Shown here: one piece after another, positions 30,160-31,710 of the stretch | Layout of the letters: every line of letters begins with the position of its first letter | Position numbering within the stretch: position 1 is the first letter of the stretch | Origin: Clostridiales bacterium | GTDB taxonomy: Bacteria; Bacillota; Clostridia; Saccharofermentanales; Saccharofermentanaceae | Length of the DNA stretch: 64,000 nt | Direction: 5' to 3' | NCBI GenBank assembly: GCA_017513085.1 | Contig: JAFWDK010000012.1 | Coordinates: 1-64,000, forward strand | Position numbers and translations under genes: made by a program | The notes under the pieces: generated by a model | The model's input: the letters and a program-made list of their open reading frames with translations, nothing else | Told to the model about the DNA's origin: nothing | Databases searched by the model: none

Positions 30160-31710
30160 GTGTTCCCCGCGTATGCGGGGGTGATCCCGCGCTTTTTACT
30201 TTGCTCGTATAGTTCACTTGGTGTTCCCCGCGTATGCGGGGGTGATCCTCAGTATCGTGTAGGCTTCAGAAATAGTGGCAAGTGTTCCCCGCGTATGCGG
30301 GGGTGATCCCACTTTCGGCATCATGGGACTTTTCAAGCATGAGTGTTCCCCGCGTATGCGGGGGTGATCCCTAACAACAAGAGCTTGCCAAAGTGGATCA
30401 AAAGTGTTCCCCGCGTATGCGGGGGTGATCCTGTCTCGAGTGTCCGGACTGCGGCGGGAGGATAGTGTTCCCCGCGTATGCGGGGGTGATCCTAACGGGC
30501 CGGTTTTTGCCTTTAAACTTCAATAGTGTTCCCCGCGTATGCGGGGGTGATCCCGCTGTATGGTACTCAAGCGGAACGGCGCGAGCGTGTTCCCCGCGTA
30601 TGCGGGGGTGATCCTTCACCTGACCGTTCGGCTGGATCTGTGCCATAGTGTTCCCCGCGTATGCGGGGGTGATCCCAATAGTCTGTGCTACCTCTTCCTG
30701 AATAGAGAGTGTTCCCCGCGTATGCGGGGGTGATCCTTCAATATAAGAATTATTAAGGAAGGTTTCCCAGTGTTCCCCGCGTATGCGGGGGTGATCCCTG
30801 TTCGACAATATGTTGGACGGAGAAGGCAAAGTGTTCCCCGCGTATGCGGGGGTGATCCCGGAACGCCGGGTGATTGGTTAATCATATTTATGTGTTCCCC
30901 GCGTATGCGGGGGTGATCCCGAGCTGGCCAGAAAGATCGATATCAATCCGAAGTGTTCCCCGCGTATGCGGGGGTGATCCTGATGTTAGAGGATTACTTG
31001 AAGCACTTGAGAAGTGTTCCCCGCGTATGCGGGGGTGATCCCCCGGTTTTCAAGTCACGGATCACGACAAGCCAGTGTTCCCCGCGTATGCGGGGGTGAT
31101 CCCGACATTCTTATCGGCGTCGGTCTGAAAGCATCGTGTTCCCCGCGTATGCGGGGGTGATCCTACAATCGAGATTTTAATTTCAGGATTGGAGGCGTGT
31201 TCCCCGCGTATGCGGGGGTGATCCTATCTGTAAGCCGGCGTCAAGGATCAGCGGCGCGTGTTCCCCGCGTATGCGGGGGTGATCCTAAATCGCCATAGCT
31301 GTCATCGGTCCATCTGATGTGTTCCCCGCGTATGCGGGGGTGATCCCGTCGAGTATGCCGTGTATGTGCATGAAGGCACGTGTTCCCCGCGTATGCGGGG
31401 GTGATCCCTCTGGGACATTATCATCACCACCCTTTTCATTGTGTTCCCCGCGTATGCGGGGGTGATCCCTAAAGAAATCTTGCCCAAATTTAGGCGTATC
31501 GGTGTTCCCCGCGTATGCGGGGGTGATCCCATTACTCAATAAAGAGCGTGTAAGCCTGTATAGTGTTCCCCGCGTATGCGGGGGTGATCCTTTGAAACTT
31601 CTTGTTTCTGGTGTACCCGTCTGGTGTTCCCCGCGTATGCGGGGGTGATCCCGGCGAGCAGCTTTCCGGCACTACCGTTACTGAGTGTTCCCCGCGTATG
31701 CGGGGGTGAT
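30160..31710 (+). CRISPR. Type I-E CRISPR array: 26 repeats, 25 spacers
   Basis: A 28-bp repeat core (GTGTTCCCCGCG, TATGCG, GGGGTGATCC in order) recurs every 61 bp from 30160 to 31685, giving 26 repeats and 25 spacers of 33 bp (32 bp if the base after the core is counted as repeat). The first 25 copies are identical by eye; the last (31685-31710) loses its final CC (reads GGTGAT then TATG), which marks it as the old, leader-distal end and confirms the + orientation. CCCCGCG and CGGGG form the hairpin cut by Cas6e. The base after each core is C in 15 and T in 10 cases, never a purine. No spacer is repeated as far as I can see. Confidence 0.99.

Follow-up and report, generated by a model that had tools for sequence, protein, structure and literature searches.

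The base that follows each repeat core of the type I-E CRISPR array described here is always C or T, and we regard this pyrimidine (Y) as derived from the PAM at spacer capture, the PAM being AAY (probability about 0.92). On the spacer strand the acquisition motif is most likely 5'-AAY-3', as read from the array, its relatives and two protospacers. The array lies in a 64,000-nucleotide stretch of Clostridiales bacterium DNA (GCA_017513085.1, contig JAFWDK010000012.1, positions 1 to 64,000), called the window below; all window features are on the forward strand.

Array Layout and the Base After the Repeat Core

The CRISPR array is located at 30160-31712 and consists of 26 repeats of 28 nt with a period of 61 nt. 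A recount by script placed the repeat starts at 30160 and then at each 61 nt up to 31685 (n = 26). The 28-nt core GTGTTCCCCGCGTATGCGGGGGTGATCC is identical in the first 25 copies, while the terminal copy is degenerate and ends with GATTA. The 25 spacers, which together with their intervening repeats occupy 30188-31684, are all 33 nt long without exception, and the first base of each is position 29 of the unit. A hairpin repeat of 28-29 nt with a 61-nt period is characteristic of type I-E and is found here. No second copy of the repeat (up to three mismatches) was found elsewhere in the 3.06-Mb genome.

The base following the core is C in 15 spacers, T in 10 and a purine in none, so the recount agrees with the original prediction that all 25 cores are followed by a pyrimidine. 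The chance figure given there, 1 in 33 million, holds for a pyrimidine content of 50%; with the pyrimidine content of the array itself (Y = 48.6%) the probability is 1.5e-8. At spacer positions 2-33 the number of pyrimidines ranges from 8 to 17 of 25 per column, hence the constraint is confined to the first one. At the opposite end, the last spacer base (position 33) is A in 14 of the 25 spacers (p = 0.002, uncorrected), a weaker effect than the first-base constraint, and among 596 related spacers pooled A is mildly enriched (1.2-fold) and T depleted at the last two bases. This far-end excess of A is perhaps a weak acquisition preference.

It could be argued that the 29th base is a true repeat base at which mutation has exchanged C and T over time, as a repeat length of 29 nt is often given for type I-E and C/T changes are transitions. 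However, all 25 of 25 copies agree in the remaining 28 columns, C and T form 15 runs along the array against about 13 expected, and their pooled adjacency in related arrays is near-random (327 vs. 316 ± 10 in shuffles). Since C and T do not occur in blocks, the base would have been chosen independently at each acquisition and not inherited from the neighboring repeat. Moreover, the array's own base was found at both phage sites that could be mapped (see below), and we consider drift highly improbable next to a PAM-derived base.

The cas Operon, Leader, and Neighboring Genes

The array adjoins one operon carrying the complete type I-E gene set, cas3, cas8e, cse2, cas7e, cas5e, cas6e, cas1e, and cas2e. 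The cas3 gene (20986-23703), an HD nuclease-helicase, matched Cas3_HD, the Cas3 C-terminal family and cas3_core, and was called Cas3e by PADLOC. It is followed by cas8e/cse1 (23700-25337; CRISPR_Cse1 and casA_cse1 above cut-off), whose product would be the PAM-reading subunit of Cascade, and by cse2/cas11 (25321-25893; casB_cse2), cas7e (25896-26951; casC_Cse4, Cas_CT1975), cas5e (26967-27680; casD_Cas5e), and cas6e (27691-28314; casE_Cse3, CRISPR_assoc). The cas1e ORF (28244-29260; cas1_ECOLI, 364 bits) has 8fy9_B as its closest solved chain. As called, it overlaps cas6e, and its family match starts only at residue 38; the true start is probably downstream of the called one. The last gene (29257-30108) encodes Cas2e (residues 1-85; Cas_Cas2CT1978) fused to a DnaQ-like (DEDDh) exonuclease (about residues 120-280; RNase_T), a fusion that places the system in the Cas2-DEDDh subgroup of type I-E. 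Its closest solved chain is the Cas2-DEDDh chain 8fy9_A, with nearly full-length coverage; PDB 8fy9 is presumably the structure from the Megasphaera Cas1-Cas2/DEDDh study. Between cas2 and the first repeat lies a 51-nt leader (30109-30159) with a TTGACA-like box, read from the sequence.

Just 3' of the array, a gene for a Schlafen group 3 helicase was observed at 32099-33997, with weak likeness to the defense proteins PDC-S41, AbiO, and Nhi. Further on, the 338-aa product of 34524-35540 resembles DrmA of DISARM weakly and only in part.

Protospacers and Their Flanks

Among the window spacers, the sole clean protospacer was that of spacer 20 (31347-31379), which matched the tail-completion gene of phage Ceridwen of Butyrivibrio fibrisolvens with 29 of 33 bases identical, four mismatches, the first base matching, and an E-value of 0.4 against the phage collection. 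Third codon positions account for three of the four differences, and the encoded peptide is conserved (VEYAVYVHEGT vs. VEYAIYVHEGT, in frame, in a protein of the tail-completion family). The upstream flank in Ceridwen is AAA|C, giving the motif AAC. The next-best match of any window spacer, that of spacer 5 in genome G536, is weak (four mismatches) and has the flank GC|T instead of AA|T; it was judged to be chance or a homologous zinc-ribbon gene. A match to Rhodococcus phage Tonitrus was also rejected, as it straddles repeat and spacer and has eight mismatches within the spacer. No match was found between the window spacers and plasmids, exact-pattern scans of IMG/VR with spacers 20, 1, 2, and 3 found none, and genomes of the genus, order and class gave only short or doubtful matches.

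The second clean site comes from L066, a relative assigned to Lachnospiraceae UBA3689 whose repeat is identical to that of the window and in which 46 of 48 spacers begin with Y. Its spacer 41 matched a gene in a prophage-type region of genome G844 (30 of 33 bases identical, flank AA|C), which adjoins a Sak4-like gene and has a repressor nearby. An AA flank in two of two clean sites has a probability of about 0.007 under composition alone. The flank check proposed earlier thus yielded two clean matches, one from the window and one from L066, both with the same pyrimidine after AA, which are too few for a logo and stand beside the weak GC|T match of spacer 5.

One of the two purine exceptions in L066, spacer 34, begins with G and matches the genome's own rpoC gene without mismatch; rpoC was identified by its NADFDGD motif. 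The chromosome at this site reads AAC|GACGAT, in other words AAC displaced by one base, and on these letters the insert is one that was cut a base inside the normal place. The cell may survive this self spacer because spacer 34 would not face AAY in the normal register. The perfect rpoC self match noted for spacer 34 (L116) and L115 is probably a tolerated self spacer.

First Bases Among Cas1 Relatives

A scan for Cas1 relatives gave 46 loci. A group of 26, the window included, was first picked by eye, with seven actinobacterial loci omitted, and the tree then recovered these loci as a clade (support 100/96). Within this clade, Y is the first base of 600 of 626 distinct spacers; the only clear outlier is L029 of Paenibacillus (11 of 15). 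Chance or base composition as the source of the pyrimidine has nothing in its favor but general possibility and is refuted by these counts and by that of the window, leaving it a negligible probability. Arrays with Y occur both with fused and with unfused Cas2. A tie between the Y rule and the Cas2-DEDDh fusion was rejected, because the unfused L026, L027, L041, L046, and L049 follow the rule too, which suggests from sequence comparison that the rule tracks the Cas1 clade and not the fusion. In the actinobacterial L047 and L059 the core is mostly followed by G, while in L054, L056, L062, and L064 (Actinomycetota) it is followed by C, G, or T with A almost absent, suggesting a possible AAB-like motif.

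Spacers of unusual length provide an argument that is independent of protospacers. Among the over-long spacers of the Y group (34 or 35 nt), 4 of 28 begin with A, compared to 6 of 596 of the 33-nt ones (p = 5.7e-4, on small numbers), and all four continue with Y. Such AY starts would mean that one extra base of AAY was retained. The original prediction, a motif of NNY, is therefore upheld in its final Y, but its NN should read AA, given the AA flanks and these A-first length slips.

The pyrimidine might alternatively have been selected for crRNA maturation or loading through the 5' handle and not at acquisition, and the 5' base of the spacer does influence efficacy in Vibrio cholerae (PMC7677007). 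Interference in that species, however, needs the purine of the target and not the pyrimidine of the spacer (PMC7677007), long arrays also occur in relatives where this place holds G or any of C, G, and T, and A occupies the same place in over-long spacers. We find this explanation very unlikely and retain the PAM as the source of the base.

The spacers of six related arrays, about 109 in all, gave no match in phages, and the L039 array and its spacers, compared with phages and 397 genomes of the L039 family, matched only other arrays or itself. One array filed under phages was observed in L084 (MT835722.1, "Bacteriophage sp.", human feces), where positions 2999-4618 hold a type I-E-like array whose 26 repeats are nearly all followed by Y. 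It is either phage-borne or part of a bacterial contig misfiled as phage, and its repeats were kept out of the protospacer evidence. In addition, L032, from a Bacillota bin, appears to encode a Cas1-Cas2 fusion, with a single open frame at 3892-5404 that covers Cas1 (48-350) and Cas2 (385-475).

Comparison with Known Systems and Proposed Mechanism

The closest precedent is the type I-E system (GI-24) of V. cholerae, which has a 28-nt repeat, 33-nt spacers and the PAM RTT (Bourgeois et al., 2020; PMC7677007). A pyrimidine comes first in 99.7% of its spacers with protospacers, with the matching purine in the target (PMC7677007). Both systems share the repeat and spacer lengths and have C or T first about equally often; in V. 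cholerae the complementary purine is captured from the PAM, and RTT is the complement of AAY (PMC7677007). They differ in repeat sequence and host, and the Cas2-DEDDh fusion is a feature of the window system. In the type I-E system of E. coli the PAM is AAG/AWG and the last repeat base, G, is likewise supplied by the spacer and derived from the PAM (PMC8482600), although it is fixed as G there and is C or T in the window. The earlier proposal that the pyrimidine is PAM-derived as in E. coli is supported by the Y rule of the relatives and by the matching base at both clean sites. AAC, AAT, AAG, and AAN are all included in the catalog of type I-E PAMs (PMC8482600), and AAY itself has been computationally inferred for Lactobacillus casei and Gardnerella vaginalis (PMC4246573), which are other hosts with the same PAM. 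The Megasphaera NM10-related Cas1-Cas2/DEDDh trimmer-integrase, whose Cas1 and Cas2-DEDDh are the closest solved ones to the window proteins, protects a TT PAM during trimming, which DEDDh later removes; the part of that paper drawn on here describes the TT PAM without a pyrimidine rule at position 29 (Nature 2023; PMC10284694).

In the mechanism that we propose, Cas1-Cas2/DEDDh would trim two T's off the PAM strand and keep the purine, so that the integrated 33-nt insert would start with the complementary pyrimidine. Duplication would cover a repeat core of 28 nt, and the 29th base would be newly supplied by each spacer. The DEDDh domain is the likely trimming nuclease here, and Cas8e would be predicted to require AAY in interference.

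Implications

A PAM-derived pyrimidine is an ordinary feature of type I-E, with the Y rule common to most close relatives; the phenomenon has already been published for V. cholerae, and the gain here is one of breadth and not of kind. We consider it somewhat probable that the Cas1 clade, mostly Bacillota with one Myxococcota and one archaeal bin, follows a degenerate AAY acquisition rule with or without a fused DEDDh, its actinobacterial relatives having mostly G or non-A. If this clade-wide reading is true, Cas1 would set the base choice at this position, and arrays alone, through their length slips, would suffice to read the PAM. For the uncharacterized type I-E system of the window, AAY is a testable PAM, and the PAM of such systems would be largely readable from the array itself. 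From the survey, the pyrimidine rule appears to be shared by a broad Cas1 clade, independently of the Cas2-DEDDh fusion.
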